From IMG/VR virus record IMGVR_UViG_3300026521_000151, positions 1 through 64,000 of that record: a stretch of 64,000 nt of DNA, one strand, 5' to 3'. Below the pieces are notes generated by a model. The model was not told the origin of the DNA, searched no databases, and saw only the letters and a list, made by a program, of their open reading frames with translations. The translations under genes and the position numbers were made by a program. Shown in pieces: positions 17,774 through 40,236 of the stretch. Every line of letters starts with the position of its first letter. Within the stretch, counting starts at the first letter, position 1. Origin of the DNA: a virus.

Positions 17774-17875
17774 AATGTCATTAAAATTAGTATAAAAATA
17801 TAAAATCCCTAAATTAAGGTAAATACCCTATGGGAAATTTTATATAATAAATATATACTAATAATAAAGTTATTT
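17774..17875 (-). repeat. A element, copy 1 (102 bp)
   Basis: Begins at the stop of the 76-aa gene and reads toward the 206-aa gene. Core in reading direction: an AT-rich block with TATTATATAAAAT, then CCCATAGGG, then CCTTAATTTAGG, ending in AATGACATT. Possible promoter/leader cassette. Confidence 0.85.
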
Positions 17876-18105
17876 TATAGCTCTTGTAAGTCTTTATATA
17901 ATTTTATTTTACTACTAACTGTTTGGTGTAAAGTATGTCTTAACTCTTTTATAACTGTACTCTTAGCTTCTACCTTTACCTGTAAATCTTTAATAGTTTG
18001 TCTAAGTAGTAGTAAATCATTCACAGTAATACTAACTTTATCCTCACCTTTTAATTCATAACTTGCTTTGTTTATTTGTTGTAATAAAAAATCTATTCTT
18101 TTCAT
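17875..18105 (-). CDS. Hypothetical coiled-coil protein, 76 aa
   Basis: Almost entirely helical with heptads of Leu/Ile (LLLLRQTIKDLQVKVEAKST, then VIKELRHTL), so it probably dimerises. One base after the stop of the upstream 52-aa gene. The A1 element starts at its stop codon. Function unknown. Confidence 0.65.
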   Translation of the reverse strand: MKRIDFLLQQINKASYELKGEDKVSITVNDLLLLRQTIKDLQVKVEAKSTVIKELRHTLHQTVSSKIKLYKDLQEL

Positions 18106-18106
18106 T

Positions 18107-18265
18107 TTATATCCTTATAATTCTTGTGGATTGTCTATACACCATTTTATCATTTTGAAATTCATAATCTATGTTAGCCTCAAAAGACTCTCTATCATCT
18201 TTTAAATTTAATACTTCTAAAACTACTATATTGTCATATTCATTTATTACTGTAACTTTAAACAT
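18107..18265 (-). CDS. Small hypothetical protein, 52 aa
   Basis: Reads MFKVTVINEYDNIVVLEVLN and on to a basic end RIIRI. ATG overlaps the upstream stop as TAATG, with AAAGGATG just before, so it is translationally coupled. Beta-strand rich. Unknown. Confidence 0.6.
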   Translation of the reverse strand: MFKVTVINEYDNIVVLEVLNLKDDRESFEANIDYEFQNDKMVYRQSTRIIRI

Positions 18266-18573
18266 TATACATCCTTTACTAATTTATTTATTAATTGTTT
18301 TCTTTTATTTCTGTACTCTCTCATATATTTCCTTCTCTTTTCTTTATTATAGTTAGCTTTTTTGTACTCATTATTTTGCTCTAAAAATAAATCATAACTG
18401 TTAGGCTTTACAATAAATCTGATAGTCGACTTAGACACCTTGTATATTTCTTTTAAATCATTATAACTATAAAGCCCCGACGCATACAATTCTTTTATTT
18501 TTTGTTTGTCTTCATCACTTAGTTTTTTTCGCCTATCTACCCCTAAGTTTGATAAATTAACTTGTTTTATCAT
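18265..18573 (-). CDS. Helix-turn-helix DNA-binding protein, 102 aa
   Basis: Residues 16-57 (LSDEDKQKIKELYASGLYSY then NDLKEIYKVSKSTIRFIV) form a resolvase/homeodomain-like helix-turn-helix. A very basic tail (YKKANYNKEKRRKYMREYRN) follows. I chose the ATG at 18573, which has TTTAGGAG upstream; the ATG at 18600 belongs to the repeat A2. Likely a regulator, or a remnant of an HNH-type protein that kept only its DNA-binding end. Confidence 0.7.
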   Translation of the reverse strand: MIKQVNLSNLGVDRRKKLSDEDKQKIKELYASGLYSYNDLKEIYKVSKSTIRFIVKPNSYDLFLEQNNEYKKANYNKEKRRKYMREYRNKRKQLINKLVKDV

Positions 18574-18592
18574 TATTTTACTCCTAAAATTC

Positions 18593-18693
18593 AATGTCAT
18601 TAAAATTAGTATAAAAATATAAAATCCCTAAATTAAGGTAAATACCCTATGGGAAATTTTATATAATAAATATATACTATAATAAAGTTATTT
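18593..18693 (-). repeat. A element, copy 2 (101 bp)
   Basis: Same core as copy 1, one base shorter in the AT-rich block. Starts at the stop of the 91-aa gene and ends 20 bases before the ATG of the helix-turn-helix gene. Confidence 0.85.
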
Positions 18694-18968
18694 TATTTAC
18701 TTTTATTACTTAATTGTAATATATTTATTTCAACGCTTTTGTATAAATCAATATAACAATTATATAAATTTATTTTTATTAAATTATCATAATCCTTTTG
18801 TTGATACACTTCCGCTCTCGTCAGCACACAAATACTATCCATACAAAACTTAATATAGTAATGTCTATTATTTTTAATGTGTCCTACCTTATCTATAATT
18901 TTATACTCAACCAAACAATTAAACAAACTTTCTTTTGTTAAATCGATTAAATTAATCTTACATAACAT
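18693..18968 (-). CDS. Hypothetical protein, 91 aa
   Basis: Strong ribosome binding site AAAGGAGG. Strand-rich first half (YYIKFCMDSICVLTRAEVY) with several cysteines at irregular spacing. No family recognised. It is flanked by repeat B2 upstream and A2 downstream. Confidence 0.65.
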   Translation of the reverse strand: MLCKINLIDLTKESLFNCLVEYKIIDKVGHIKNNRHYYIKFCMDSICVLTRAEVYQQKDYDNLIKINLYNCYIDLYKSVEINILQLSNKSK

Positions 18969-18990
18969 ACTACCTCCTTTTAAAGTGTTT

Positions 18991-19077
18991 TAAGCAACTT
19001 TATATACTTAGATATACAAATACACCTAAAACTTAATAAAGTTGCTTAGAAGCAAAGTATGAGCCTTATAGAGCTAT
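18991..19077 (+). repeat. B element, copy 2 (87 bp, inverted)
   Basis: Reverse complement of copy 1 with two mismatches. It begins within the last codons of the SF2 helicase gene. With copy 1 it forms an inverted pair around 17.7-19.0 kb. Confidence 0.85.
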
Positions 19078-20409
19078 ATACTTATCAAACTTCACAACTC
19101 TCTTACTGTCTTTCTCTTTAACTACTAATTTATTTATATCATTATACCTTTGTTTACATTGTTTAGTTAATACACCACCAAACATAATGTCAATAAATAA
19201 AGGTTTTTGTTTTGTACTATGTTCACGTACTAATCTACCTCTAAGCTGTTCTAAGTTTTCTTTTGTAAGTGTAGATAAATTAATAATAGTGTCCAACCTC
19301 TCTATTGATACACCTTTATTTAAAATAACCCCTGAAATAATAATATCTAATTCCTCATCTCCAAAATTATTTATTATCTCCTCTCTATCACTCTTTTTCA
19401 CTTTACTATTGATGATACCGACTTTTAATCCTATGTCTTCTAATAGTAACTTATAGTATTCCATAACGATACTGTAATTAGTGTAAAGTAGAATTTGTCT
19501 ATTTTCCTTTTTAAGTTGAGTTATTAGGTTTATAACATATTTACTAAACTCTTCATTGCACACAATGTTTGAGTAAGCATCAGCAAATGAATTACCGTCC
19601 CATTTAGTTCTCCACGAGGTCAAATCTAAAATATCCCATTGTACTTTTAGACCTTTATTTAATCCTACTACTTCATTACTTCCAAATAAATCTCTAAGTA
19701 ATTCAGTTAAACCATCAGACCTTGTAGGAGTAGCCGTAACAAATAATTGGTATGCGTGATTCAAATTAGCTAAAACATCTCTATAAGTTTCAGCTCCTAA
19801 AATGTGTGCCTCATCTACAATCACAAATCCTACAATTTTAGATAATTCTTGTACTATGTCAGCATTCCTATGTAAAAATTGAAATGTAGTAATATAAACG
19901 TCTTTTGTTATGTCTAATTTTTTATCCTTTACAATTTGGTAATTTCCATTTGAGTTATGTTTGAATTCTTTACTCATTTGCTCTACTAAAAACTTTCTAT
20001 CTACAATAATTAAAGTTTTTTGATTAATTTCCTCCACAATAAAAGGTAAAATAAAACTTTTACCGAAACCACAAGGAGCTACTAATAAACAATCGCCTTT
20101 GTTTTTTAAATTTTCAATAACTTTGTTTACTGCTATTTCTTGGTTAGGTCTAAGTTTCAAGTTATCTGACTTCCTAAAATTAGTTAGATTATTTTTAGTT
20201 GTTTTGTCTATTATTTTTAAACTACCTAAAACATTTTTTAATTTATCTATATCTCTCGGGAATTTAATATAATCTTTACCTACTTTTGTGGAGGTCACTA
20301 TTTTGTAATCAAAATTACTACCTTGCCTATAAGAATACTTTTTAATAGCTTCTAAACTATTCTTAGTTTTTGGTACAATATAAAACCCTGATTTTATTAC
20401 CTCTATCAT
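19066..20409 (-). CDS. SF2 DNA helicase (UvsW-like / DEAD-DEAH family)
   Basis: 447 residues. Walker A APCGFGKS (111-118), DEAH (199-202), VTATPTR (motif III) and the C-terminal LRGRLVR arginine-finger motif VI are all present. An 80-residue N-terminal domain precedes the motor. UvsW-type helicases remodel recombination intermediates and R-loops, which fits the phage's SbcCD pair. Start has AAAGGAGGTGCAAAATG and overlaps the previous stop. Confidence 0.88.
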   Translation of the reverse strand: MIEVIKSGFYIVPKTKNSLEAIKKYSYRQGSNFDYKIVTSTKVGKDYIKFPRDIDKLKNVLGSLKIIDKTTKNNLTNFRKSDNLKLRPNQEIAVNKVIENLKNKGDCLLVAPCGFGKSFILPFIVEEINQKTLIIVDRKFLVEQMSKEFKHNSNGNYQIVKDKKLDITKDVYITTFQFLHRNADIVQELSKIVGFVIVDEAHILGAETYRDVLANLNHAYQLFVTATPTRSDGLTELLRDLFGSNEVVGLNKGLKVQWDILDLTSWRTKWDGNSFADAYSNIVCNEEFSKYVINLITQLKKENRQILLYTNYSIVMEYYKLLLEDIGLKVGIINSKVKKSDREEIINNFGDEELDIIISGVILNKGVSIERLDTIINLSTLTKENLEQLRGRLVREHSTKQKPLFIDIMFGGVLTKQCKQRYNDINKLVVKEKDSKRVVKFDKYIAL

Positions 20410-20675
20410 TTTGCACCTCCTTTGTAATAATTCACTAAATTAACTAAGTCTTCAATCTCTAAGTCTAAATCTTGTAAAGTGACTGTTATATACCCTAAGG
20501 TAGTCCAATCATAATCCTCACAACCTTTATACACATAAGGTCTATTTGTGCCAAATTCTATTTCTACTCTATCTATTATGTTATCCACCATATACTCTAA
20601 TATCTCTAAGACATAATCAGATAAAGCTATTGCAAAAGCCTCTTCTATGTCGTGTGCTTCTATTGTTAAACTCAT
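20406..20675 (-). CDS. Hypothetical acidic protein, 89 aa
   Basis: The ATG at 20675 has AAAAAGGATT in front; an upstream ATG at 20711 lies in repeat A3. The product is very acidic and helical (EAFAIALSDYVLEILEYMVD), with a strand pair near GYITVTLQDLDLEIEDLV. Acidity and size would fit a DNA mimic or inhibitor, but this is speculation. Confidence 0.65.
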   Translation of the reverse strand: MSLTIEAHDIEEAFAIALSDYVLEILEYMVDNIIDRVEIEFGTNRPYVYKGCEDYDWTTLGYITVTLQDLDLEIEDLVNLVNYYKGGAK

Positions 20676-20703
20676 TTTATAATCCTTTTTCTTATGTATT
20701 TTT

Positions 20704-20805
20704 AATGTCATTATTTTACACCTATTTTTATAAAATCCCTAAATTAAGGATAATACCCTATGGGAAATTTTATATAATAAATATATACTAATAATAAAGT
20801 TATTT
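20704..20805 (-). repeat. A element, copy 3 (102 bp)
   Basis: Second sequence subtype, with TTTTATAAAAATAGGTGTAAAATAAT-type downstream half in reading direction. Ends 28 bases before the ATG of the 89-aa gene, and its similarity to copies 4 and 5 continues through the ribosome binding site. Confidence 0.85.
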
Positions 20806-20993
20806 TTAACTATCTAAATCAAATCTATTTTCGTTTAAAATATCACATATTTTCTGTGCATCTTTTTCTGTTTTAAAATAAACTCTATCAGGAAAATAAA
20901 AATAATCTGTTATACTTGTTATCCATTGTTCATTGTTTTCTTCTACAAAAATCTTTTTTAAAACCAAACAATTCTATCTAATGTATCACTCAT
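20806..20993 (-). pseudogene. Frameshifted small gene (about 62 codons)
   Basis: An ATG at 20993 opens MSDTLDRIVWF and stops at once. A different frame then runs on without a stop for about 50 codons (KIFVEENNEQWITSITDYFY and on to NRFDLDS) and has no start of its own. A single-base indel near TTTTAAAAAAG would join them. Programmed -1 slippage is less likely because the codons would pair poorly. Confidence 0.45.
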
Positions 20994-21005
20994 TTATTTA
21001 TCCTT

Positions 21006-21308
21006 TTATTTATGTAATTGTTTTAAACTAAAACAATTACATCCGAAATAATCTGAAACTTTTGGATAATAATCTTCATATTCTTCTATTTCTGTATTAT
21101 ATATTTGTTGTGTTAAACAATTACTAACACATTCTTCTCCGTTATAGTATATACAGTTTTTACATATTCTATTTTCAAAATCATCATATATTTTATTTAT
21201 TAAAAATCTTACATCAGTTGTTTTCACTACTTTTTCAGTTACTGCTTTGTCATCATCTTCATATCTTGTTACTTTAAAATTTAAAGCTTTTTCTCTTGTT
21301 AATTCCAT
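21006..21308 (-). CDS. Hypothetical cysteine-rich protein, 100 aa
   Basis: The C-terminal half carries CKNC, C, C, then CNC spacing (cysteines near 54, 57, 66, 70, 89, 91), suggesting a metal or disulfide site. The N-terminal half is charged and helical. Ribosome binding site AAAGAGGTG. No family recognised. Confidence 0.65.
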   Translation of the reverse strand: MELTREKALNFKVTRYEDDDKAVTEKVVKTTDVRFLINKIYDDFENRICKNCIYYNGEECVSNCLTQQIYNTEIEEYEDYYPKVSDYFGCNCFSLKQLHK

Positions 21309-21623
21309 TTTACACCTCTTTTTATACGACTAATAAGACTTGGATTAACTCCAAATTTTATAGCTAGATCTTTATTCTTATAACAGTTTTTAACATATTT
21401 TTTAGCTCTTTAACTTTTCTTCATTTAATCTTGCTCTATTATGGTTTTCTCTTTTTAAGTTTCTTAATCCTTACTCATTACAAGCTTTTCTACAATTTTC
21501 ACCCCTTGTTGTATACTCTAAATTTTCTGCATTATTATTTCTTGCTACTTCATTATCAATTAGTATTAACTCTTTATAAGATCCTGATAATTCAAATCTT
21601 ATTTTAAGCTCTTCTATATCCAT
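21309..21623 (-). pseudogene. Decayed HNH homing endonuclease (C-terminal remnant)
   Basis: From the ATG at 21623 the frame gives NNNAENLEYTTRGEN, matching the 'K.NN...NLEWvT..EN' segment of HNH proteins like the intron endonuclease at 12235. It then meets a stop, followed by GLRNLKRENHNRARLNEEKL, another stop, and in another frame DLAIKFGVNPSLISRIKRG, the usual helix-turn-helix end of such proteins. The catalytic His-rich part is missing, so the gene is dead. Confidence 0.65.
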
Positions 21624-21659
21624 TAAATGATAAGAAGTATTTTTGCATTTCTTCTAATT

Positions 21660-21869
21660 TTATTTGTTTTTCTTTTCAATAACAAAATAAATAGTTATGT
21701 CCTTACAGTTAGAGTCAATTTGTAAAATATTGATTTGATCTATTTCATCCTTATAAGGAAACCATACATCATTTAGTAACAAATATCTTAACCTTGATAT
21801 ATAAAAATTTCCAACATTTTCTATTGTATGTTCAATAATTTTTCCGTGATTATACCCAAATACTCTCAT
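21660..21869 (-). CDS. Hypothetical protein, 69 aa
   Basis: Ribosome binding site AAAAGGAG. Strand-rich, with a mid segment YISRLRYLLLNDVWFPYKDE and a hydrophobic strand near ITIYFVIEKK. It lies just upstream of the decayed HNH gene. No family recognised. Confidence 0.6.
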   Translation of the reverse strand: MRVFGYNHGKIIEHTIENVGNFYISRLRYLLLNDVWFPYKDEIDQINILQIDSNCKDITIYFVIEKKNK

Positions 21870-21941
21870 TTTAAGCTCCTTTTGTAGTTTATGTATATTT
21901 TATAATTATATTTGCTATCTTACCTCTAAGCATACTTTATG

Positions 21942-22259: not shown

Positions 22260-22453
22260 TTTTGATCCTTTTTGTTTTGTTTATTTTGTGCTTTTATTTT
22301 AGTAAATTTTTTCTCTAAGTGTAGTAACACCCGCTCATTATCTTCTACATAACCTGAACCTAAATCATAAAGCTCAGTTAAACAAGCATCACTGAACTCT
22401 AATAACTCTTCAACTACTCTAATTAATTTTTTATTTTGTTTTTCTAATTTCAT
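22256..22453 (-). CDS. Hypothetical helical protein, 65 aa
   Basis: Helical, with heptads in the first half (LEKQNKKLIRVVEELLEFSD) and a Lys-rich tail. Its ribosome binding site and ATG lie at the downstream end of repeat A4. Unknown. Confidence 0.65.
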   Translation of the reverse strand: MKLEKQNKKLIRVVEELLEFSDACLTELYDLGSGYVEDNERVLLHLEKKFTKIKAQNKQNKKDQK

Positions 22454-22481
22454 TTTTTAATCCTTTTTCTTATGTATTTTT

Positions 22482-22583
22482 AATGTCATTATTTTACACC
22501 TATTTTTATAAAACCCCTAAATTAAGGATAATACCCTATGGGAAATTTTATATAATAAATATATACTAATAATAAAGTTATTT
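22482..22583 (-). repeat. A element, copy 4 (102 bp)
   Basis: Identical to copy 6 (38589-38690), including 28 extra bases upstream up to 22611. Starts at the tail of the decayed gene copy and reads toward the 65-aa gene. Confidence 0.88.
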
Positions 22584-22585
22584 TA

Positions 22586-22725
22586 TGTTTATTTAATTAT
22601 CATTTATATTGTTTAGTACAACATAATCAACCCTAAACCGTTGTTCTTTAAACAACCACTTACTGTCAGTTCTTAGTTGAGCTTCAAATTCTACATATTC
22701 CTACGATAACAGCTCTTTTTATAAT
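22586..22725 (-). pseudogene. Decayed partial copy of the 140-aa gene at 23201-23623
   Basis: Short stretches match the downstream intact gene in order: the AAAGAG-TGTTATC region near its start, GGAATATGTAGAA, TTTGAAGCTCAAC and GTGGTTGTTTAAAGAACAA near its end. The start codon and two internal blocks are deleted; one deletion joins two CTACAT words. B3 lies above it just as B4 lies above the intact gene, so gene and element were duplicated together. Confidence 0.75.
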
Positions 22726-22748
22726 TTTACTTTACCTTACTATTATAC

Positions 22749-22835
22749 ATAGCTCTATAAGGCTCATACTTTGCTTCTAAGCAACTTTATTAAGTTTTAT
22801 AAGCAAACATACTATAAGCCTTTTAAAGTTGCTTA
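22749..22835 (-). repeat. B element, copy 3 (87 bp)
   Basis: Same as copy 4 (23667-23753). Shares the left half with copies 1 and 2 but has a different, equally long right half. Begins four bases after the 71-aa gene's stop. Confidence 0.85.
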
Positions 22836-22839
22836 AAAC

Positions 22840-23055
22840 TCAATAGGGTTGTCTTATAGGGCTATTACCTTTTGTTTTATCAATTATTTTATTTAGTGAT
22901 ATTGTGTACTCCACGTCTACACTACTTCCGTCTTTAAAAATATACCTAATTATTTTATGTTTCTGCTCTTCTTTTAAGTAAATAGTATCTAAAACCTCAC
23001 TAAAATACTCACTAACATTTTCAGCTTTTATTATTTTATCACTTGTATACTTCAT
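22840..23055 (-). CDS. Hypothetical protein, 71 aa
   Basis: Ribosome binding site AAAAAGGATT at the end of repeat A5. A helix (NVSEYFSEVLDTIYLKEEQ) then two strands (KIIRYIFKDGSSVDVEYTIS). No family recognised. Confidence 0.65.
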   Translation of the reverse strand: MKYTSDKIIKAENVSEYFSEVLDTIYLKEEQKHKIIRYIFKDGSSVDVEYTISLNKIIDKTKGNSPIRQPY

Positions 23056-23082
23056 TTTTAATCCTTTTTCTTATGTATTTCC

Positions 23083-23183
23083 ACTGTCATTAAAATTAGT
23101 ATAAAAATATAAAATCCCTAAATTAAGGATAATACCCTATGGGAAATTTTATATAATAAATATATACTATAATAAAGTTATTT
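23083..23183 (-). repeat. A element, copy 5 (101 bp)
   Basis: Core identical to the others; the last motif is AATGACAGT in reading direction. Lies between the 140-aa gene and the 71-aa gene. Confidence 0.85.
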
Positions 23184-23200: not shown

Positions 23201-23623
23201 CTAAATAGACTCTAAATATAAATCATCTATCTTATTATTTAGTACATCATAATCAGCTCTAAACCATTGTTCTTTAAACAACCACTCCCCGTTTTCTTTT
23301 ATAACCACAACTGTTATGTAACAATACGGTGGTTGATCCTCCATTAAATCCCTAAAATCTATGTTTAGACTACAACTAACCGTGCAAGTATCACTAATTA
23401 ATTTACAGTTTTTTAACTCGTGGAGTATAAAGTGTTTTGAATAAATACCTCCGTCATCTTTTGGTTGAGCTTCAAATTCTACATAATCAATAGCCCCTAT
23501 TTTTCTATTTACAATGTTTTCTAACTTTCTAACTAATCGTGTAGTTGTTATAAAATCATCTATTTCTAATTCATTTTCTACATATTCCTGTGATAACAAC
23601 TCTTTTGGTGTATTCCATTTCAT
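23201..23623 (-). CDS. Hypothetical acidic protein, 140 aa
   Basis: Mixed alpha/beta, acidic, with ISDTCTVSCSLNIDFRDLME in the centre and an aromatic strand WLFKEQWFRADYDVL near the end. A decayed second copy lies at 22586. Ribosome binding site AAAAGGATTAT. Unknown function; duplication and loss suggest a dispensable accessory role. Confidence 0.7.
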   Translation of the reverse strand: MKWNTPKELLSQEYVENELEIDDFITTTRLVRKLENIVNRKIGAIDYVEFEAQPKDDGGIYSKHFILHELKNCKLISDTCTVSCSLNIDFRDLMEDQPPYCYITVVVIKENGEWLFKEQWFRADYDVLNNKIDDLYLESI

Positions 23624-23666
23624 TTTATAATCCTTTTTATAATTTTACTTTACCTTACTATTATAC

Positions 23667-23753
23667 ATAGCTCTATAAGGCTCATACTTTGCTTCTAAGC
23701 AACTTTATTAAGTTTTATAAGCAAACATACTATAAGCCTTTTAAAGTTGCTTA
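23667..23753 (-). repeat. B element, copy 4 (87 bp)
   Basis: Begins exactly with the TAA stop of the 63-aa gene and forms the leader of the 140-aa gene. Arms AAGCAACTTT/AAAGTTGCTT can pair, as can GGCT...TTTGCTT with AAGCAAA...AGCC in interleaved order. Confidence 0.85.
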
Positions 23754-23942
23754 AATCCTTTTATTTTTACTAATTATTTCGAAGTCAATAAATGATACAG
23801 GAATTAGCACAAAGGTTTCAAGTGTTTGTTTATAACCGTAAAGGTAAAATTTACCTACATTTCCTGCTAAACCGTCAAACACTAATTTATAATTTCTTAC
23901 TCTTATAACTTGTCCTTTTGTTAAGTAAATAATACTATTCAT
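23751..23942 (-). CDS. Hypothetical protein, 63 aa
   Basis: Strand-rich, SH3-like alternation of hydrophobic strands (IIYLTKGQVIRVRNYKLVFD, then VPVSFIDFEI). Ribosome binding site AAGGAGTAAG. Overlaps the upstream stop by four bases. Unknown. Confidence 0.65.
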   Translation of the reverse strand: MNSIIYLTKGQVIRVRNYKLVFDGLAGNVGKFYLYGYKQTLETFVLIPVSFIDFEIISKNKRI

Positions 23943-26506: not shown

Positions 26507-26688
26507 TTTTAAGTCCTTTTTGTTTTGATTTTATTTTGTGTTTGCACCTAATGACTACACAAATATAAGGGTAATTTCATATTACTGAAAAAATTACCCT
26601 TATATTTATATAACATTGTGATTTAATTCTACTTAATAAATCACCTTATTTATGGGAAGTGGTGATTATTATTTAGTGTTTTTCATAT
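26507..26688 (-). other. Structured 5' leader of the 462-aa gene
   Basis: No gene. The minus-strand leader holds a perfect 17-bp hairpin (26561-26577 with 26591-26607, loop 13) and a second one near 26631-26673 built on AAATCACC/GGTGATT. Neither is followed by a T tract, so they look like mRNA structure or attenuation elements rather than terminators. Confidence 0.6.
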
Positions 26689-26717
26689 TTTATAAAATAA
26701 TTGTATAACATTGTCAA
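26689..26717 (-). promoter_or_regulatory. Sigma-70 promoter for the 462-aa/peptidase operon
   Basis: Minus strand TTGACA (26717-26712), 17 bp, TATAAA (26694-26689). One mismatch in the -10. Confidence 0.7.
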
Positions 26718-26733
26718 ACATTAATCAGTTATG

Positions 26734-26771
26734 ACTACCTTACAAAATTTTTTTATTTTTTGTAAGGTAGT
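26734..26771 (-). terminator. Strong hairpin ending the upstream small-gene operon
   Basis: Perfect 14-bp stem (ACTACCTTACAAAA / TTTTGTAAGGTAGT) with a 10-base A/T loop. It lies after the 23-aa gene and the tandem repeat, just upstream of the next promoter. The T run is inside the stem, so it is a probable but not classical terminator. Confidence 0.55.
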
Positions 26772-26790
26772 GAAATTTTTGTAAGTTTTT

Positions 26791-26874
26791 GAGTTCAGTT
26801 TTTTGAGTTCAGTTTTTTGAGTTCAGTTTTTTGAGTTCAGTTTTTTGAGTTCAGTTTTTTGAGTTCAGTTTTTT
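26791..26874. repeat. 14-bp tandem repeat, six copies
   Basis: Six exact copies of GAGTTCAGTTTTTT in a row, with partial units at both ends (TTTTT before, GAACTT after). Noncoding, between a small ORF stop and a hairpin terminator. Confidence 0.95.
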
Positions 26875-26878
26875 GAAC

Positions 26879-26950
26879 TTAATGGAACATCGCCGAAAAA
26901 CCAAGTAAAAAGCTGAACGAAATTATTATGTCGATTTTGTTGTATCTCAT
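26879..26950 (-). CDS. Small membrane peptide, 23 aa
   Basis: AAAGGATTCAAAATG opens MRYNKIDIIISFSFLLGFSA then MFH. One hydrophobic segment (8-22) after a basic start. The tandem repeat follows its stop directly. The same ribosome binding site string precedes the 55-aa gene upstream. Confidence 0.5.
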   Translation of the reverse strand: MRYNKIDIIISFSFLLGFSAMFH

Positions 26951-26986
26951 TTTGAATCCTTTATTTTTTATTTTTTAAATTACATT

Positions 26987-27154
26987 TTAATTTTTTAAAT
27001 AAGCTTGAAAATCAGCTATCACAAAATTGATTTCAGATAGCTTTAAATTTTCTTTGAAGAGTTGGTCTTTAATTTGTATTAACATTTTAACCTGCTCTTT
27101 TTTATTTAGTTCTTTGAAAAACTCCACTAAGTTTATATAATCATTTAATTTCAT
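26987..27154 (-). CDS. Small helical protein, 55 aa
   Basis: Helical and charged (LVEFFKELNKKEQVKMLIQI). Ribosome binding site AAAGGATTC; its ATG overlaps the stop of the 96-aa gene as ATGA. Unknown. Confidence 0.6.
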   Translation of the reverse strand: MKLNDYINLVEFFKELNKKEQVKMLIQIKDQLFKENLKLSEINFVIADFQAYLKN

Positions 27155-27441
27155 TTTGAATCCTTTATTAAAGTTTCTAAATTAGCTTTTAAATTGTAAG
27201 AGCTTACTACGATACAACCTCCACAGTCTTTTCCACGGTATTTTTTCCCGCCAATTTCCCTGCTTATTTTTAAAGCTTGATTAAACAATTTAGAAATAGA
27301 ATTTATGTCTATTTTATAATCAATCTCTTTTAATCTAAGAAAATACAAAAAGTGAATCACATATCTAGGGTTACCATTCACATCGTTCTTAACTCTTTTA
27401 TACTCAACTTCTACATCATTTACAGTTACATAGTTAACCAT
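27151..27441 (-). CDS. Hypothetical protein, 96 aa
   Basis: A TTG at 27447 could extend it by two residues, but AAAGGATTTGAATATG places the start at ATG 27441. Contains KKYRGKDCGGCIVVSS near residues 74-89, a Gly/Cys turn between helix and strand that may bind metal. Unknown family. Confidence 0.65.
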   Translation of the reverse strand: MVNYVTVNDVEVEYKRVKNDVNGNPRYVIHFLYFLRLKEIDYKIDINSISKLFNQALKISREIGGKKYRGKDCGGCIVVSSYNLKANLETLIKDSK

Positions 27442-27771
27442 ATTCAAATCCTTTAAATTTAATTTTGTGATATTCTATTTACATAATGAGAACATCATCA
27501 AACTAAATCGTTTGATTGAACCTTTAAACAACACTCCAATGCACTTCCAACACTTGGTAGCCAACCTTTAAAAGTTCCTTAACAACAAATTATCAAATAT
27601 CGTTTATAGTGTTATGATGATTTAATCAAACCACTTGGTGCTATTGTTTGGATTATGTTTTTAGTATTTTGAAAATACTTTATGTAATCCTTGCACCTTT
27701 TAAATAAATAAAAACTCAAACCTTTTTGAAAGAAACTTTTAATCTCTTTCAAGCCGTTTGTTTGTTTATGA
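27442..27771 (-). other. Long structured leader RNA (about 330 nt)
   Basis: Lies between a consensus promoter and the 96-aa gene with no credible coding frame. Local hairpins on the minus strand include TTGAAAGA/TCTTTCAA, AGTATTTT/AAAATACT, TTGG-CTA-CCAA and ATCAAAC/GTTTGAT. Longer-range complementarity exists between TTTAAAGGTT-type segments. A regulatory leader or a stable RNA is plausible. Confidence 0.45.
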
Positions 27772-27777
27772 GTTGGA

Positions 27778-27806
27778 ATTATAGTAAATTTTTGTTTGAA
27801 TGTCAA
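27778..27806 (-). promoter_or_regulatory. Sigma-70 promoter of the structured leader
   Basis: Minus strand TTGACA (27806-27801), exactly 17 bp, TATAAT (27783-27778); perfect consensus. Confidence 0.82.
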
Positions 27807-27903
27807 GTGATTTTTAATAAATTTATACACAAATTTTAATGAATGTTTAATAAAGTCCGTAAATAAGGGTTATAAAATTATTGTAAATTTTGTTATTTTT
27901 AGT

Positions 27904-28118
27904 GTAGATAGCTTGAAGGTGTATTATAATAGTTATAATAGATTATATGATAGCTTGGAGGTGTATTATAGATAGCTGTATGGAGGTGTATTATAATAGT
28001 TATAATAGATTATATGATAGCTTGGAGGTGTATTATAGATAGCTGTATGGAGGTGTATTATAATAGTTATAATAGATTATATGATAGCTTGGAGGTGTAT
28101 TATAATAGTGTTATTAGT
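27904..28118. repeat. 67-bp tandem repeat, about three copies
   Basis: Copies align at 27918, 27985 and 28052 (GGT of GGTGTATTATAATAG), period 67 bp, the third truncated. Each unit itself contains two copies of GGTGTATTATA and AT-rich words such as TTATAATAGATTATAT. Noncoding; a candidate iteron array or origin. Confidence 0.85.
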
Positions 28119-28356
28119 GGAGTGTGCTTCCATTATATGTTTGACTCAAACATAATGATACAGGGGGATGTTAGTTTGAGATTTTTAGTGGTTGTTTTGG
28201 AGAGTACAAAACACTCTCAAACACGTTATGTAATATATACTCTGAGTATAATTAAATACTATTGGAGAGCGTCACAAAACACTCTCAAACACGTTATGCA
28301 ATATAGATATACACAATATCTAAGTTAATTCTACTAAACACAAAACACTCTCAAAA
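28119..28356. repeat. Intergenic region with dispersed CTCTC hairpin repeats
   Basis: ACAAAACACTCTCAAACACG and following bases recur at 28206 and 28274 (spacing 68 bp), with a shorter copy at 28340 ending next to the dNMP kinase stop. GGAGAGT/ACTCTC and GAGAG/CTCTC form small hairpins. No gene seen here. Confidence 0.6.
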
Positions 28357-30746: not shown

Positions 30747-33737
30747 TTAATTTGCACAATCAATACATTTATTTGATTCTTTTGAATCAATAGTTAAGCT
30801 ATAATACACTGCTTTCAATTCTTTATTTTTAAAAGCATTCAATATACTATCACTAATAAGTTTTATATTAGTATTTTCAGGATTGATAAATAACTCCATT
30901 GAAATACCTGTATCGACCCATCTCTGTAACCTTGTTGTCATATGCACTATATCGTGTGCAGGTATTTGATACTTAGCTTTATAACTCCAATAGTTAGTTT
31001 TTATAAATTTAGGCATAACAGGTACATTCATACCCCCTAACTTTTGATAAAAGAACTTTTCTTGTGGCGGTAAGTAACTTGCCGTCGTACCCATAAGTAA
31101 TCCTGTTGAAGTGTTAGGTGCTATTGCTAACAACCAACCATTCCTTAGTCCATACTTATTTATGTCATTTATTAAACCAACCCAATCTAAATTGTTTAAA
31201 CTTCTTTGGTTTAACTCTTCTGGTAATGTACCAAATAATGTCTTAATACCATTAAAAGCTTTGTAACTACCTTTTTCCTTAGCTATTTCCATACTACCTT
31301 TAAATGTATAGAATGAAATAAGTTCTATTAGTTTTTCAGCCTCGTAATAACCTTTTTCACTGTTATAAACAACATTCTTACTTGCTAAATAATCAGCTAA
31401 CCCTAAAATACCTATTCCTATATTTCTAAACAACTCTGATGAATTCTTAGCCTCTGGTACAGGCATTGTTCCAGTATCAATAGAATTGTCTAACATTTCT
31501 ACTGCACATTTAGCTACCTCCTCAATATCATATTTGTCTATATCCGCTACATTAATAGAAATCAAACTACAACTATGGTATAAACCATCTGATGTATAAT
31601 TAGTTATTTTATCCTCAACAACATCTAAGCTATATTTAGTAGCTGGTTTAATTAGGCTATAACTTTCTTGACATTGTCCTGTACATAAACCATTAAACAT
31701 ACCTAAATGTTTTTTAGACTCTGTAAAACACCAAGTAGGTTCTATTTTACCTTCATCTACAATAGCTGTTACTTGTATAAACTGTTCAGCGTTTCTACTA
31801 GGTTGTCTTAATTTAGGTTGTAGTCTAAATGTCTTTAAACCAAGACTTAGTAAAGCTTGAACACCATTCTCTCCGATAAGTAACCTATAACTATCCTCAC
31901 GTTTGTTTAAAGTAGTTACAACACCTAATGTCTGTAGCATCAGTAAAACATTATGTAAAAATATATAATTCTTGTCCTTTATTTGAATACTATAATCACC
32001 AAACAAAATACCATTATTATCCATAAGCTGTGCTAACCACCTTAACCTACTTTGTACTGTATAAGCTTTATCAGGTACAAAATAATCACCTGATTTAAGA
32101 TTAGTACAAGAAAATTCTTTATACCCATCAATAATAGGTAAGTCAAATTTAATTAGTTTATCACCTATATGCAACTCATATGCACGCTTTTCAATAGTTT
32201 TACCCGCAATAGCCACATAAAATTTATGGTAAGGAGTACATTCAATAGTACCTCCGTTTGTTTCTACTTTTACTACTTTCTGTCCTTCACTTGTCTTAAC
32301 AATAGTAGTTTCACTCCACTCACTACCATTCCACACATTCACTTGTTGGTCTTCTAAGTCTATAATCTCTTTATATCCATACTCTTTTGTTAAAATCTTA
32401 GTATCTCCAACAACACACAGATTCCCACAAGTAGCTACACCAATATCTTGATGTCTATTATCTATGTTTAAGTTGTCTTTGTGATTTATATAAAAATCTC
32501 CAGTTTCAATGTAAATCTCTAAGTACCTTTTCCATAATTCTTTAGCTTTTACTTTTCTAAAATGCTTTAATTTACCGTCTTCAATTAACTTTACTATTTT
32601 ACTATAAGTGTCTTTAAAAGCATCGCCTATTAAATAAGGTATCACTACATTTAATAATTTACCTGCTTCATAATGGTCAAATTGATATACAAAGTCATCA
32701 TTTAAAACTGCGTCTATAAACACATCATCTACAACAATTTGTGGGAATAAATCAAATGCTTTTAACCTTAACTCTCCTGCTGTTTCTGTTTTCATTTCTA
32801 CAAAATCATTACTGTCTAAATGATACCAATCGATAGCTGGTGTTATAGCACCTTTCCTATTAGCACTTGCTTGTGTTACTGAATTAGCTATATCATTAAA
32901 GAACCTAACCCAATTCATTATATTACCAGCACTCGGTATTTTATCTGACTTACTTCCTTGTGGTCTTATAGGAGTAACATATACACCTAAACCTCCACCG
33001 GCTCTCGATATAACACCTGCATCCATAATAGCCTTTGCAATACCTTCCCAACTATCAGAAATAGGTAGAATAAAGCAACTACCTGTGTTACCATTAGGTA
33101 CTCTTAAATTTCTTTTAAATGGTGTAGCTAAACTGATAACATTATTGTTAAGTAAATTAAAGTATTGTTTAGCTTTACTGACTCTATCTGTATAATTATT
33201 AGCTAAAATCATTGCATTAACTAAATTAGCCCATATAGGATATTCTGTTATGCTGCCATTTAACTTTAGTAGATATTTTGATTTTAAACTTGCTACTTGT
33301 GCTATTGTAAGCTCAAAATCTTGTAAATTACCGTCAATAAATTTACTTAACTCAGCTAAATCATCTTTCGTGTAATTACTTAAAAGATTAAAATTATACA
33401 AATTATTATCAACAGCAAATGTTGTTATAAACTCATAAAAATTATGATAGTCTAATTTAGTTTGTTTATAAACTTGTCTATATAATTGCCACATAGCTAA
33501 TCTACCAGCTACTTTAATCATATCAGGTTCATCTAATGATGTAAGCTTTATAGCAGTTGTCATAATAACATCTTGTAAATCAGTTGTAGTTACTACCTCA
33601 CTTGTTATTTTTAACTTACTCTCAATTTCGAGGGGATTAATATCTGTATCTTTACAAGCAAACTCTAACTGCCTCCTAATTTTAAGTACATCAAATTCCT
33701 CTAACTCACCACTTCTTTTTATAACGTTTTTAATCAT
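30747..33737 (-). CDS. nrdA: Class I ribonucleotide reductase large subunit NrdA, with intein
   Basis: 996 residues, 748 after intein removal. It has an N-terminal ATP-cone-like region, the GSCFILPI active-site Cys, NLC-QES around the thiyl-radical Cys (split by the intein), SCSLISIN with the partner Cys, and a C-terminal CIDC redox pair. It reduces NDPs to dNDPs with NrdB. Start has AAAAAGGAG. First gene of its operon, under the promoter at 33773. Confidence 0.95.
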   Translation of the reverse strand: MIKNVIKRSGELEEFDVLKIRRQLEFACKDTDINPLEIESKLKITSEVVTTTDLQDVIMTTAIKLTSLDEPDMIKVAGRLAMWQLYRQVYKQTKLDYHNFYEFITTFAVDNNLYNFNLLSNYTKDDLAELSKFIDGNLQDFELTIAQVASLKSKYLLKLNGSITEYPIWANLVNAMILANNYTDRVSKAKQYFNLLNNNVISLATPFKRNLRVPNGNTGSCFILPISDSWEGIAKAIMDAGVISRAGGGLGVYVTPIRPQGSKSDKIPSAGNIMNWVRFFNDIANSVTQASANRKGAITPAIDWYHLDSNDFVEMKTETAGELRLKAFDLFPQIVVDDVFIDAVLNDDFVYQFDHYEAGKLLNVVIPYLIGDAFKDTYSKIVKLIEDGKLKHFRKVKAKELWKRYLEIYIETGDFYINHKDNLNIDNRHQDIGVATCGNLCVVGDTKILTKEYGYKEIIDLEDQQVNVWNGSEWSETTIVKTSEGQKVVKVETNGGTIECTPYHKFYVAIAGKTIEKRAYELHIGDKLIKFDLPIIDGYKEFSCTNLKSGDYFVPDKAYTVQSRLRWLAQLMDNNGILFGDYSIQIKDKNYIFLHNVLLMLQTLGVVTTLNKREDSYRLLIGENGVQALLSLGLKTFRLQPKLRQPSRNAEQFIQVTAIVDEGKIEPTWCFTESKKHLGMFNGLCTGQCQESYSLIKPATKYSLDVVEDKITNYTSDGLYHSCSLISINVADIDKYDIEEVAKCAVEMLDNSIDTGTMPVPEAKNSSELFRNIGIGILGLADYLASKNVVYNSEKGYYEAEKLIELISFYTFKGSMEIAKEKGSYKAFNGIKTLFGTLPEELNQRSLNNLDWVGLINDINKYGLRNGWLLAIAPNTSTGLLMGTTASYLPPQEKFFYQKLGGMNVPVMPKFIKTNYWSYKAKYQIPAHDIVHMTTRLQRWVDTGISMELFINPENTNIKLISDSILNAFKNKELKAVYYSLTIDSKESNKCIDCAN
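31674..32417 (-). other. Intein in NrdA (248 aa)
   Basis: Residues 441-688. Block A CVVGDTKILT at its start, block B with TPYH at intein residues 61-64, block F TWCFTESKKHLGM at 228-240, and a C-terminal GQ followed by the +1 Cys of the extein. Splicing ligates NL to CQES. The last residue is Gln instead of Asn. A half LAGLIDADG-like motif LAQLMDNNG is at 128-136, with no second copy. Confidence 0.92.
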
Positions 33738-36089: not shown

Positions 36090-36099
36090 ATCAATCCTT

Positions 36100-36489
36100 T
36101 TACGCTAATTGATTAAGTACATTGATAATTACATTCTCACCACCTGCACCTAATCTCTTTTTCTCAGTTTCTTTCATCATTGCATTTGTCGTATTTATAA
36201 CATCTAAAATATCTCTACCTCTGCCTAACAAATCAGTCATATTTTCAGCATTCTCTGTTAGCTCATCTGTAAGGTCATTAAGTATCTCACTTTGCTTTAC
36301 TTTAAGTAATAACTCTCTATGTTCTACAATTTCAACTAATTTATCTTTTATATTAGGTTTAACAAATACTTTGTTTATAGCTTTTATTGGTAAATCTAAT
36401 TTATAAGCTATGTCTTTTCTTGAATAACCTTTAGTATAAAGTTCTAAGACTTGTTCATCTAACTCTGTAAATTTAACTAACTCATTCAT
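36100..36489 (-). CDS. terS-like: Probable terminase small subunit
   Basis: 129 residues. I chose the ATG at 36489 because it has AAAAGG upstream; an ATG-like start 22 codons earlier overlaps another gene. The N-terminal helix-turn-helix (DEQVLELYTKGYSRKDIAYK and following) and helical middle are typical of TerS DNA-recognition subunits. Position just before terL supports this. Confidence 0.7.
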   Translation of the reverse strand: MNELVKFTELDEQVLELYTKGYSRKDIAYKLDLPIKAINKVFVKPNIKDKLVEIVEHRELLLKVKQSEILNDLTDELTENAENMTDLLGRGRDILDVINTTNAMMKETEKKRLGAGGENVIINVLNQLA

Positions 36490-36691
36490 CGTTATACCTT
36501 TTAGGTAATTTATTTGTATAACCACATTTATATTTAACAAACTGTATAAAATCACTGATAGACGCCACTACATCTGAATCCTTACTCCTAAGTTTTCTAT
36601 AAGCCTCTTCACAAACATCACAAGTATTTTTATCGTCTTGAATACGTTTACCGCAACTGCAATATCTCCTATTTTTCTTTAATCTTACCAT
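36482..36691 (-). CDS. Zinc-finger protein, 69 aa
   Basis: CSCG (11-14) and CDVC (24-27) form a CxC...CxxC zinc ribbon after a basic start VRLKKNRRY. Overlaps the TerS start. Unknown role, perhaps DNA binding in packaging or replication. Confidence 0.65.
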   Translation of the reverse strand: MVRLKKNRRYCSCGKRIQDDKNTCDVCEEAYRKLRSKDSDVVASISDFIQFVKYKCGYTNKLPKRYNDE

Positions 36692-36692
36692 A

Positions 36693-38207
36693 TTAACTCA
36701 CCTTATCTCGATAGCTTGATTTAGCTTTCATACCACTACGAGTTAATGTTACTACATTTTGTGCTATAGAGGCTAACAATTCTATCGAATATATATTATG
36801 CTTAGCTTTCTTCATAAACTTAGCGTAGTCTTCTTCATTATCTTTAAAGTTAGCTGATTTAAAATAACTTACTAACTCTTCAGCAGGAATACTACATAAA
36901 ATTAAGTCAAATAAAGTTACCATATCTTTATCTTTTTGTAAGTCAAAACTACCAATTAAAATAAATAGCTCTTTTACTTCCTCTCTATATTTTCTATAAG
37001 TCTTAATATCTACCTCTGCTAACCTTGCTAATCTATTATAGAACCCTACACCTTCCATAATATGATCAATAGTTGTTGCTCCTGTGTCTATTGCTATTGC
37101 TAAATTAGTAATAATCTTTATCAGCATTTTAGAGTGTATAGTTTTAGTTAAGTCTAAATAATACTCTCTTGTAAATTTAGAATAAACAGGATTATAATTA
37201 TCCTCTGTAAAATTAAATACAGATAATGCTATGTTCTCTACCTCACTATTGTATAAAGGTATTCTAAATCTCTCATTCTCTCTCATTGCTATCTCCTTAA
37301 ATTCTACATAACTTAATCCATTTCTATGTGCCTCAAACCCTAATAAAGTAAGATTACTAAGTAAAGCTTTATTCCTACCACCGACATTAACTTTACTTAA
37401 ATCAACTAATTGCTTAGTTATAAACTTACTTTTTGTTTCAAAATTAAACTCTTTTATTGTGAATCTACTAAGTTTATTTAACATTGTTGCTACAACACAA
37501 TTAACAATCTCTTTACTACTAATAAAATCTGTTAGATTAAATATAGTATTATTAAACTTATGTTCGTGTTGTAAAGGATTTCTCATTATATAACCTGCTG
37601 CATTCAAATCACCATTAAATAAGGCATTCATTTGTCCTACCACATATTTATATAAAACAGTAGATAATGAGCTTTTGTTAGCTATGAAATGGTCTAATGT
37701 AAATAATATGTGCCAACCTTTCTTAGTCTTAGTGATAAAAGAAGGTAATTTACCAAACTTAGCCGTACAAAACTTCTCAATATCTTTAAAAGACTTAAAT
37801 TGTTTTCTATCATCAATATCAACAGGTACAACTTTACTACCTAAAATACCATTACTTGTAGGCTTAATTTGTATAAAATAAGCTGTATTGATAGCAATGT
37901 TATTAAATGTTTTATCTGTTGCCGCTTTCTTATCTTTGGCTAATGAGCACTGCATTAGCCTTTGGTTGTTTACATAATAACTTAAATGTTCCTTAGGTAG
38001 ATTTTTACCTACTCTTTTTCTACCTGTCGGGCTATATTGTAATTGATGTTTATCTACACCTTTTAAAATAGAATTAAGCTCTGTTAACTCTCTATTAAAT
38101 TTAGTCTTAGCTTTAATAACTCCTTTCGGCAGCTTAGGTCCACTAAACATATTAGAAAGTTCATTTTTAAATTTTGATTTTATATCATCTATTATTTGTT
38201 TATTCAT
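36693..38207 (-). CDS. Archaeo-eukaryotic-type primase / plasmid-type replicase
   Basis: 504 residues. VDIDD (129-133) fits the catalytic DxD, GWH (164-166) the sxH motif, and YIMRNPLQHEH (206-216) resembles the KNP-type segment of ColE2-like replicases. A PriCT-1-like helical domain (VGGRNKALLSNLTLLGFEAH) lies at about 280-345. It could prime or initiate replication. It coexists with a DnaG-like primase. First gene after the divergent promoter. Confidence 0.65.
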   Translation of the reverse strand: MNKQIIDDIKSKFKNELSNMFSGPKLPKGVIKAKTKFNRELTELNSILKGVDKHQLQYSPTGRKRVGKNLPKEHLSYYVNNQRLMQCSLAKDKKAATDKTFNNIAINTAYFIQIKPTSNGILGSKVVPVDIDDRKQFKSFKDIEKFCTAKFGKLPSFITKTKKGWHILFTLDHFIANKSSLSTVLYKYVVGQMNALFNGDLNAAGYIMRNPLQHEHKFNNTIFNLTDFISSKEIVNCVVATMLNKLSRFTIKEFNFETKSKFITKQLVDLSKVNVGGRNKALLSNLTLLGFEAHRNGLSYVEFKEIAMRENERFRIPLYNSEVENIALSVFNFTEDNYNPVYSKFTREYYLDLTKTIHSKMLIKIITNLAIAIDTGATTIDHIMEGVGFYNRLARLAEVDIKTYRKYREEVKELFILIGSFDLQKDKDMVTLFDLILCSIPAEELVSYFKSANFKDNEEDYAKFMKKAKHNIYSIELLASIAQNVVTLTRSGMKAKSSYRDKVS

Positions 38208-38249
38208 ACAATCTCCTTTTATTTATTTTTGTATCAGTAAATTACTTGT

Positions 38250-38278
38250 ATTATATCAAATTTTTAAAGTAATGTCAA
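38250..38278 (-). promoter_or_regulatory. Sigma-70 promoter for the replicase/terminase operon
   Basis: Minus strand TTGACA (38278-38273), 17 bp, TATAAT (38255-38250); perfect consensus, about 45 bases before the ATG. Confidence 0.82.
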
Positions 38279-38472
38279 GGGTTTTATAAAGAAATTTTAA
38301 AAAACTTCACACTCTCTATAAGTATATTACACCCCACTGTACAAAGTTTTAGGTTTTTTATGTGTTGCTAAGTGCGATGACGCCCACCAATTAGGTAAGT
38401 AAGAAATTTGTAAATTTAAATATACTATAAGTATTATATACCTATTTCTGTTAATTTTAGTTTTAATGATAG

Positions 38473-38484
38473 CTAACGCGTTAG
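38473..38484. promoter_or_regulatory. Perfect 12-bp palindrome, candidate operator
   Basis: CTAACGCGTTAG is a perfect palindrome with a CG-rich centre in an AT-rich stretch. A TATAAT lies eight bases to its right on the plus strand. Possible regulator binding site. Confidence 0.45.
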
Positions 38485-38588
38485 TGTAGTTTATAATGTA
38501 GTGTTGAGTAGAGTGACATAAATCAGTGGAGTGGTTGTAATTAGTTAGTCTATATTAGAGCAATATAAATGATAATTAAATAAACATA

Positions 38589-38690
38589 AAATAACTTTAT
38601 TATTAGTATATATTTATTATATAAAATTTCCCATAGGGTATTATCCTTAATTTAGGGGTTTTATAAAAATAGGTGTAAAATAATGACATT
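38589..38690 (+). repeat. A element, copy 6 (102 bp)
   Basis: Plus-strand copy upstream of DNA ligase, identical to copy 4. Identity extends left to 38561, so 130 bp (38561-38690) match 22482-22611 exactly in reverse complement. Confidence 0.9.
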
Positions 38691-38731
38691 GAATTTTATG
38701 GGTTATTTATACAAATTTCTTTATAAAACTC

Positions 38732-38760
38732 TTGACATTATTTTAAAAATTTGGTATAAT
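38732..38760 (+). promoter_or_regulatory. Sigma-70 promoter for DNA ligase
   Basis: TTGACA (38732-38737), 17 bp, TATAAT (38755-38760); perfect consensus, 28 bases before the ligase ATG. Confidence 0.83.
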
Positions 38761-38788
38761 TGTGTATAAATACACAAAAAGGATTTAG

Positions 38789-40135
38789 ATGAAATCTATT
38801 ATAGACAGACTTAGTAATGTAAGTTCTCGTAAAGAGAAAGAGCGTATTTTAACAGAACATAAAGAAAATGAACTATTTAAAAAAGTGTTAAAAGCTACAT
38901 ATGATAATAGTATAAAGTATTATATAACTGATTGTGTTTTCACTCCTACCAACGAAAACATAACATTAGATAATGCAATAGACTATCTGTTAAATGAAAT
39001 AGCTACACGTAAAGTAACAGGTAACTTAGCACAAGAAACAGTTAATAAAATATATTCATCATTACCTACCGATGATAGATATGTTTTTAAGCTTGTTTTA
39101 GAGAGGAATTTAGGTTGTGGTATATCAACTACTACAATCAATAAAGTCTTCTCTGAGCTCATTACAGACCCTAAGAAACTATATATGCGTTGTAGTACGT
39201 ATGATAAAAGTAAAATAAGTAAGATAGCAAAACCAAATGACCTATTTTATGTTCAAGAAAAGTTAGATGGTTTATATTGTAATTATGATATTAATAATCA
39301 AGACTTTATAACAAGGAACTTAAAACAATTACCTTTGTTTGTAAATCAGTATGAAGCTTTTGTCGATATTGTAAGGGGTGTTAATAACACACAACTAAGT
39401 AATGGTGATTATATTTTACAAGGTGAGTTATTAATTAAAGACAAAATAACTAATGAGATACTACCTCGCGAGGTTGGTAATGGTATGTTAAACAGTAAGA
39501 ACAATTTATTAGATTTAACTAAGTATAAAGTAGTGTATTACGTGTGGGATGTGATAAGTAAAAATGTATGGTTAGGTAAGCAACAATCTAAACCTTATTA
39601 TGATAGACTACAATTTTTACAAGATAATGTTAAGTTTCTTAACGATTGTGTAGTAGTACCTCAAACAATTCAAATATACCATAATGGGAGTTTTGAATCA
39701 GAAGTAGATAAATTATTAGATTTATTTTTAAGTAGGGGTAGTGAGGGAATTGTAATTAAACATAGTAAGATGTTATGGGAGGGTAAAACAAGTAAATATC
39801 AATTAAAATATAAAAAGGTGATTGAGGTTGATTTACTAATTACTGATTTATTAAATGGTGTTACAGGAAGCAATAAAGGTAAATTATCTATATTACACTG
39901 TGAGAGTTTAGAGGGGGAGTTACAAGTTAATGTCGGCATAGGTTTGAGTGACGAAGTATTAGAGGACATTAGAAATAATATGAATAATTGGTTAGGTAAG
40001 GTTGTAGCTATTAAAGCATTTGGTATTACAACTAATGATAATGGTTATAGTTTATTCTTACCTCGTTTTGTAGAGTTAAGGTTAGATAAAGATGAACCTG
40101 ATAGTATAGATAGAATAAAAGAAATAGATAGTTAA
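38789..40135 (+). CDS. ATP-dependent DNA ligase
   Basis: 448 residues. The adenylated lysine K158 is in EKLDG, followed by LQGELLI (motif III), SEGIVIKH (motif IV) and YQLKYKK (motif V). An N-terminal helical DNA-binding domain (1-145) and a C-terminal OB fold are expected for this length. It seals nicks in phage replication and recombination. A7 begins right at its stop codon. Confidence 0.92.
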   Translation: MKSIIDRLSNVSSRKEKERILTEHKENELFKKVLKATYDNSIKYYITDCVFTPTNENITLDNAIDYLLNEIATRKVTGNLAQETVNKIYSSLPTDDRYVFKLVLERNLGCGISTTTINKVFSELITDPKKLYMRCSTYDKSKISKIAKPNDLFYVQEKLDGLYCNYDINNQDFITRNLKQLPLFVNQYEAFVDIVRGVNNTQLSNGDYILQGELLIKDKITNEILPREVGNGMLNSKNNLLDLTKYKVVYYVWDVISKNVWLGKQQSKPYYDRLQFLQDNVKFLNDCVVVPQTIQIYHNGSFESEVDKLLDLFLSRGSEGIVIKHSKMLWEGKTSKYQLKYKKVIEVDLLITDLLNGVTGSNKGKLSILHCESLEGELQVNVGIGLSDEVLEDIRNNMNNWLGKVVAIKAFGITTNDNGYSLFLPRFVELRLDKDEPDSIDRIKEIDS

Positions 40136-40236
40136 AATAATTTTATTATTAGTATATATTTATTATATAAAATTTCCCATAGGGTATTATCCTTAATTTA
40201 GGGATTTTATATTTTTATATTAATTTTAATGACATT
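40135..40236 (+). repeat. A element, copy 7 (102 bp)
   Basis: Starts at the ligase stop and ends 27 bases before the ATG of the 95-aa gene. Belongs to the subtype with a TTTTATATTTTTATA-like middle. Confidence 0.85.

Follow-up and report, generated by a model that had tools for sequence, protein, structure and literature searches.

The A repeat, a unit of 101 to 103 bp present in seven copies between the genes of an uncultured phage, is read here, at a probability of roughly 0.45, as a dispersed intercistronic RNA connector that would join a stop codon, an RNA hairpin and a ribosome-binding site (RBS) and also supply homology for the shuffling of open reading frames (ORFs). The stretch analyzed, called the window, comprises bases 1 to 64,000 of the IMG/VR virus record IMGVR_UViG_3300026521_000151, whose full length is 67,626 bp. 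The reading draws on the observed position, orientation and edges of the copies, the mosaic of their versions, a gene fragment duplicated together with the unit, and the strand asymmetry of the computed fold.

The 5' edge of A meets or supplies the stop codon of the upstream ORF, and the 3' edge reaches the downstream RBS, which four copies take in. In the proposed connector, the unit would be transcribed within polycistronic early mRNA, in which the hairpin may separate neighboring messages through RNase III-type cleavage or protection of the upstream 3' end. Any ORF between two cassettes could then act as its own unit. Homologous recombination between copies, expected because the cassette is repeated at high identity, would duplicate, swap or delete the small ORFs lying between them, and such shuffling may be a selected role of A.

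Copies, orientation and edges of the A repeat

All seven copies listed by the first-pass annotation are found at their positions and on their strands (Table 1). BLAST searches with the copies in the complete record give E values of 1e-49 to 3e-33 and no eighth copy, and a covariance model of A recovers the same seven in the window, with nothing else significant there. The copies have a GC content of 14 to 19%, are 95 to 100% identical over positions 1 to 77 and sit mostly between ORFs without known function. Two dyads, CCCATAGGG and CCTTAATTTAGG, occur seven times each, all within A copies and none in coding sequence. Every copy is oriented toward its downstream gene, as had been proposed, with five in minus-strand and two in plus-strand gene blocks; random and independent copies would show this in less than 1% of cases, but the copies are not independent. 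The position ahead of a gene, also noted earlier, is to be qualified for two copies: a B repeat (described below) parts A1 from its downstream gene 16989-17609, and a sigma-70 promoter follows A6. The description of A as a dispersed phage-specific cassette is borne out; it is intergenic, keeps its orientation and often takes in the downstream RBS.

The 5' edge of A lies at the upstream stop codon in A1, A2, A3 and A7; A5 starts ∼18 nucleotides (nt) past the annotated stop, and A4 and A6 start ∼12 nt past the one that ends a gene fragment. The first-pass annotation had each copy begin at or just after an upstream stop codon, and all copies are indeed close to one. The ORF upstream is frameshifted at A3, and at A4 and A6 there is a fragment in place of an intact gene. 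The sequence GATAGTTAAAA precedes A3, A5 and A7, and the homology there therefore takes in the stop codon. On the downstream side, the likeness of A3, A4 and A5 runs on as far as the ATG, as noted before, and so covers AAAAAGGATT and the short spacer, rich in A, that comes after it, and A7 carries a similar but diverged RBS-to-ATG sequence. The idea of one common 3' end before each gene survives in part: the unit reaches the RBS region, but its last ∼25 bp exist in two versions, and A5 terminates in ATGACAGT, not ATGACATT. A leader peptide at the end of A (ATG ACA TTx) was considered and dropped, as a Shine-Dalgarno sequence (AGGTG) stands ahead of it only in version II and its codons are not conserved.

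Internal variation and recombination

Beyond position 77, version I reads ATTTTTATACTAATTTT in A1, A2 and A5 and, with one C-to-T change, in A7, and version II reads AAAAATAGGTGTAAAAT in A3, A4 and A6. The downstream flank falls into class a (GAATTTTA...) in A1, A2 and A6 and class b, which includes the RBS, in A3, A4, A5 and A7. All four combinations of version and flank (I-a, II-a, I-b and II-b) occur, as do all four combinations of a short 5'-arm deletion (A2 and A5) with an apical TTTACC/TTATCC difference. This four-gamete pattern shows that the A copies have recombined with one another.

A second trace of recombination within this phage is found at A4 and A6, which have 133 nt in common at 99% identity, including 28 nt of the gene fragment upstream of A6. 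This fragment holds the final codons of a paralogue, now decayed, of gene 23201-23623, the gene that precedes A5, so that pieces of genes move together with the A unit. Version II matches the reverse complement of version I at 12 of 16 bases (p ∼0.008), hinting that one of the two 3' arms may have arisen by a small inversion.

Table 1. Coordinates of the A and B repeats and of associated features in the window
Feature	Position	Strand	Remarks
A1	17774..17875	minus	Version I at the 3' end, class a flank; begins directly behind the stop of 17875-18105
A2	18593..18693	minus	Version I, class a; 5' arm shortened by small deletion; gene 18693-18968 upstream, helix-turn-helix gene 18265-18570 downstream
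A3	20704..20806	minus	Version II, class b, RBS included; frameshifted ORF ∼20807-20992 upstream, 20406-20672 and helicase 19066-20409 downstream
A4	22482..22584	minus	Version II, class b; after fragment of paralogue of gene 23201-23623
A5	23083..23183	minus	Version I, class b; 5' arm shortened by small deletion; gene 23201-23623 upstream, 22840-23055 downstream
A6	38589..38690	plus	Version II, class a
A7	40135..40236	plus	Version I (single C-to-T change), class b-like; begins within the DNA ligase stop codon; gene 40264-40551 downstream
B	17597..17719	minus	71% identity; between A1 and gene 16989-17609
B	18981..19080	plus	Oriented against the minus-strand genes on either side; lies upstream of 18693-18968
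B	22715..22837	minus	Upstream of the gene fragment that precedes A4
B	23633..23755	minus	Same sequence as 22715-22837 (100% identity); immediately upstream of 23201-23623
Small ORF	23201..23623	minus	3' part recurs, decayed, before A4 (22587-22700) and A6 (38561-38586)
Perfect sigma-70 promoter	38732..38760	plus	TTGACA-N17-TATAAT; between A6 and the ligase gene
Sigma-70-family-like protein gene	4417..4968	plus	183 amino acids; directly after SbcC-like gene

Predicted RNA fold

The sense RNA of each copy is predicted to form a single long, G-U-rich hairpin of 30 to 34 bp, which takes up nearly the whole unit in both versions. This hairpin consists of a central helix (ATATAAAATTTC/GGGATTTTATAT), an apical part (TAGGG/CCTTA) and a basal helix, and the 3' arms of versions I and II both pair with the same 5' arm. 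Computed minimum free energies lie between -16.1 and -19.2 kcal/mol for the sense strand and between -6.2 and -13.2 kcal/mol for the antisense strand. The sense folds rank in the lowest 1 to 7% of GC-matched genome windows, and the antisense folds take an ordinary rank of 18 to 78%. The gap in energy between the strands is exceeded by 0.1 to 0.6% of matched windows for version II and 3 to 8% for version I, and it is likely caused by G-U pairs, which are present in the sense RNA only. Two single-base differences in the paired arms (A to G and C to T) stay paired, as G-U, on the sense strand only, and one pair shows a one-sided change from U-A to U-G.

Several points speak against the connector reading. 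The hairpin has weak z scores of -1.1 to -1.5 in dinucleotide shuffling, and shuffling of the variable 3' segment alone gives p values of 0.07 to 0.5, which are not significant. No pair in the arms is changed on both sides, and covariation is absent because the seven copies are nearly identical; nor are the copies independent, the seven fold results amounting to about two draws. In A5 and A7, pairing is predicted for the downstream RBS as well. In addition, A6 lies upstream of its gene's own sigma-70 promoter, so that its transcription would depend on read-through that starts farther upstream. A hairpin in A is likely but not established, the evidence for it being modest.

Promoter sequences and the sigma-like gene

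Five perfect sigma-70 promoters (TTGACA-N16-18-TATAAT) are present in the genome, all of them intergenic, and further sites match at 11 of 12 positions. A sigma-70 -35 element is absent from all seven A copies, which agrees with the earlier remark that TTGACA is missing at sigma-70 distance. The best sigma-70 match is 8/12 in every copy, compared to a mean of 8.4 to 8.7 in shuffled sequence (p of 0.90 to 0.97). The region 38208-38788 is a divergent one with two perfect sigma-70 promoters facing apart and A6 in the middle, and both promoters lie within a 55-bp inverted repeat (38250-38304/38706-38760).

The protein encoded at 4417, named in the first-pass annotation as a phage sigma-like factor, matches phrog_1740 with an E value of 8.7e-5 and TIGR02937 with an E value of 0.0036, below the cut-off of that family. 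Judged by these matches, it is plausibly a divergent sigma-like factor. Its AlphaFold2 model is too poor to use (predicted local distance difference test score of 35), and this analysis finds no link between the protein and A.

Alternative explanations

The main rival, a serious though doubtful one, describes A as a phage-specific promoter built on a single -10-like element (TTATATAAAAT), recognized by host RNA polymerase together with the sigma-like protein from 4417 in the manner of the phiEco32 sigma. The phage does carry such a gene, all A copies face the next gene, often with its RBS, and the co-oriented repeats of a distant T5-like contig (L072) hold sigma-70 promoters matching at 9 to 12 of 12 positions. 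In phiEco32-like phages, moreover, the phage sigma (phi32_gp36) recognizes the single-element promoter tAATGTAtA (PMC8948821), a precedent in favor of the idea. The sequence TATATAAAAT is ∼20-fold denser in intergenic than in genic DNA, but this excess comes from A itself, which holds 7 of the 8 intergenic sites. Reuse of the motif would be expected because a phage sigma would serve late genes too, yet none of the 8- to 10-mers within the A core clearly recurs upstream of the 76 other genes, late genes included. The fold spans the proposed -10 and start region, so that a transcript begun there would lack the 5' arm; A6 is followed by a perfect sigma-70 promoter belonging to its gene; and in T5 the host sigma-70 transcribes all gene classes (PMC7472727). 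The original proposal of a promoter read by the 4417 factor is not borne out, given the missing motif reuse, sigma-70 scores no higher than those of shuffled sequence and a proposed start site inside the fold. A host sigma-70 promoter cassette would have parallels in the dispersed sigma-70 promoter repeats of distant T5-like relatives and in the promoter early stem-loops (PeSLs) of T4-like phages, which combine a promoter and a stem-loop (PMC4503421). For A it is very improbable in view of the low match in every copy compared to 12/12 at the five perfect sites.

A selfish or neutral repeat resembling a miniature inverted-repeat transposable element or a REP element, spread by recombination or copying and merely tolerated in gaps, would account for the high identity, the decayed neighboring genes, the recent duplication with a gene fragment and the presence of a second dispersed family, B, in the same region. 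Such a repeat is unlikely, as the edges of A show neither terminal inverted repeats nor target duplications and closely meet stop codons and RBSs, the orientation to genes is kept in 7/7 copies of A but not in B, and one copy stands between the ligase gene and the gene preceding the portal gene. The view of A as a weak AT-rich intrinsic terminator after each ORF builds on a short hairpin (ATCCTTAATTTAGGGAT, -7.4 kcal/mol) followed by a U-rich tail, which version I can form, and on a similar hairpin at 40595-40625, ahead of the portal gene. This is improbable: the U-rich tail follows the stem-loop in version I only, the apical change in A1 and A2 breaks the short hairpin and extends an alternative one, a terminator scan finds no site in A, and ordinary strong terminator-like hairpins exist elsewhere, such as in 44098-44301 and 8025-8136. 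Least probable of all is a site that acts in the DNA itself, via the dyads CCCATAGGG and CCTTAATTTAGG, in replication, in packaging or as the target of a DNA-binding protein. Both dyads are confined to A, but the DNA fold is at the level of shuffled sequence, A is tightly linked to stop codons and RBSs, and the G-U pairs that make the fold strand asymmetric would be needless in a DNA palindrome. A palindrome or cruciform in the DNA is disfavored by the same asymmetry.

Genomic setting

The B repeat is a second dispersed hairpin repeat that alternates with A around small ORFs. Its arms of 14 bp (AAGCAACTTTA...TAAAGTTGCTT) give a fold whose z score is ∼-3.1 for two out of three tested copies. 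A decayed HNH-endonuclease-like sequence, recognized by eye in a frame-broken translation, lies at 21309-21659 (minus) in the plastic region of A3 to A5.

The window has a GC content of 28.5% and shows no tRNA and no Rfam match at the gathering threshold; in the A6-A7 region, Rfam gives nothing up to an E value of 5 apart from a chance microRNA model. Among the encoded proteins are matches to the terminase, portal, head protease and capsid families of phages, and further matches include DNA ligase, NrdA/NrdB, SbcCD-like proteins, a DnaB-like helicase, DNA polymerase and thymidylate synthase. One protein, of 2530 amino acids, matches the tape measure family. The terminase finds its best matches in Demerecviridae (T5-like) phages at ∼27% identity, which makes the uncultured phage a distant T5-like siphovirus; the searches brought up no close relative.

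The DNA polymerase gene (11216-14890, minus) is interrupted by an HNH endonuclease ORF at 12235-12969, flanked by subthreshold group I intron matches at 12031-12259 (E value of 8e-6) and 12975-13140 (E value of 0.0025). The NrdA-like protein (30747-33737, minus; 996 amino acids) aligns over its full length to profile positions 61 to 794 of 975, which suggests an internal insertion, perhaps intein-like. A stretch of 1.85 kb without a recognized gene (26507-28356) contains tandem repeats (6.5 x 14 bp and 3 x 67 bp) as well as one of the perfect sigma-70 promoters (27806, minus) and is possibly a replication origin or leader region. At 11004-11135, there is a 54-bp exact direct repeat, with copies 78 bp apart and a terminator-like hairpin in between; a perfect promoter (11194, minus) lies upstream of it.

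Relation to relatives and known systems

Exact and degenerate patterns of the A core recover no relative carrying A among viral contigs and genome contigs; two 17-mer matches lie in unrelated sequence from which the rest of the unit is absent. Searches for related loci with single sequences (ligase, TerL, portal and NrdA) return nothing, and an alignment search with TerL reaches T5-like contigs at ∼25% identity only. The covariance model of A finds nothing significant in the 51 TerL-found T5-like loci searched. Dispersed intergenic repeats around small ORFs are common in these contigs, L072, L050, L066 and L063 among them. The repeats of L072, a contig related to this phage through TerL, resemble A in being intergenic, co-oriented with genes and placed around small ORFs, but the sequences are unrelated, and L072 contains sigma-70 promoters (TTGACA-17-GATAAT/TATAAT), which A does not. 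Distant kin thus also carry dispersed connectors, but with a recognizable promoter that A lacks. The repeats of L050 and L066 show GC-rich hairpins beside TTGACA.

The intercistronic RNase III sites of T7 and the REP, ERIC and Correia repeats are, as A would be, transcribed intergenic hairpins that serve in processing or 3'-end protection. Going by their descriptions, A differs in being phage specific, ∼102 bp long, of 14 to 19% GC and strand asymmetric in its fold. The repeats of the Campylobacter group II phages CP21 and CP220 also come from low-GC phages, have a similar unit length (72 to 86 bp) and are implicated in module shuffling (PMC4546147). Those of CP21 flank large modules as clustered arrays, with as many as 18 units in an arm and with both orientations present (PMC4546147), whereas A occurs as one copy per gap, always co-oriented and linked to stop codons and RBSs.

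A parallel in architecture is offered by the PeSLs (Arbiol et al. 2010, Comeau et al. 2014) of T4-like phages, described as an early promoter with a terminator stem-loop (PMC4503421). As outlined there, PeSLs share with A the form of short, repeated, gene-oriented regulatory cassettes between small ORFs in plastic regions; PeSLs provide homology for ORF shuffling, as A may also do. On the same account, A differs in having neither a recognizable host early promoter nor a standard terminator, in belonging to a T5-like siphovirus and in a hairpin that takes up nearly the whole unit. A is PeSL-like in architecture and recombination footprint, yet it is not classed as a PeSL because it has no recognizable early promoter, the element that defines PeSLs. 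That a promoter-less connector of stop codon, RNA hairpin and RBS serves as both message separator and recombination socket, and so acts as a PeSL-like element at the RNA level, may hold, though the odds are against it. Cassettes for the swapping of small genes are already documented in T4-like phages. A comparable, promoter-less cassette in a T5-like phage, taken with the promoter-bearing dispersed repeats of other T5-like contigs, would suggest that connector cassettes have emerged more than once, in phage groups that are not related, and may work via RNA instead of promoters. The seven copies form a compact natural test set for parting a promoter function from one in RNA processing.

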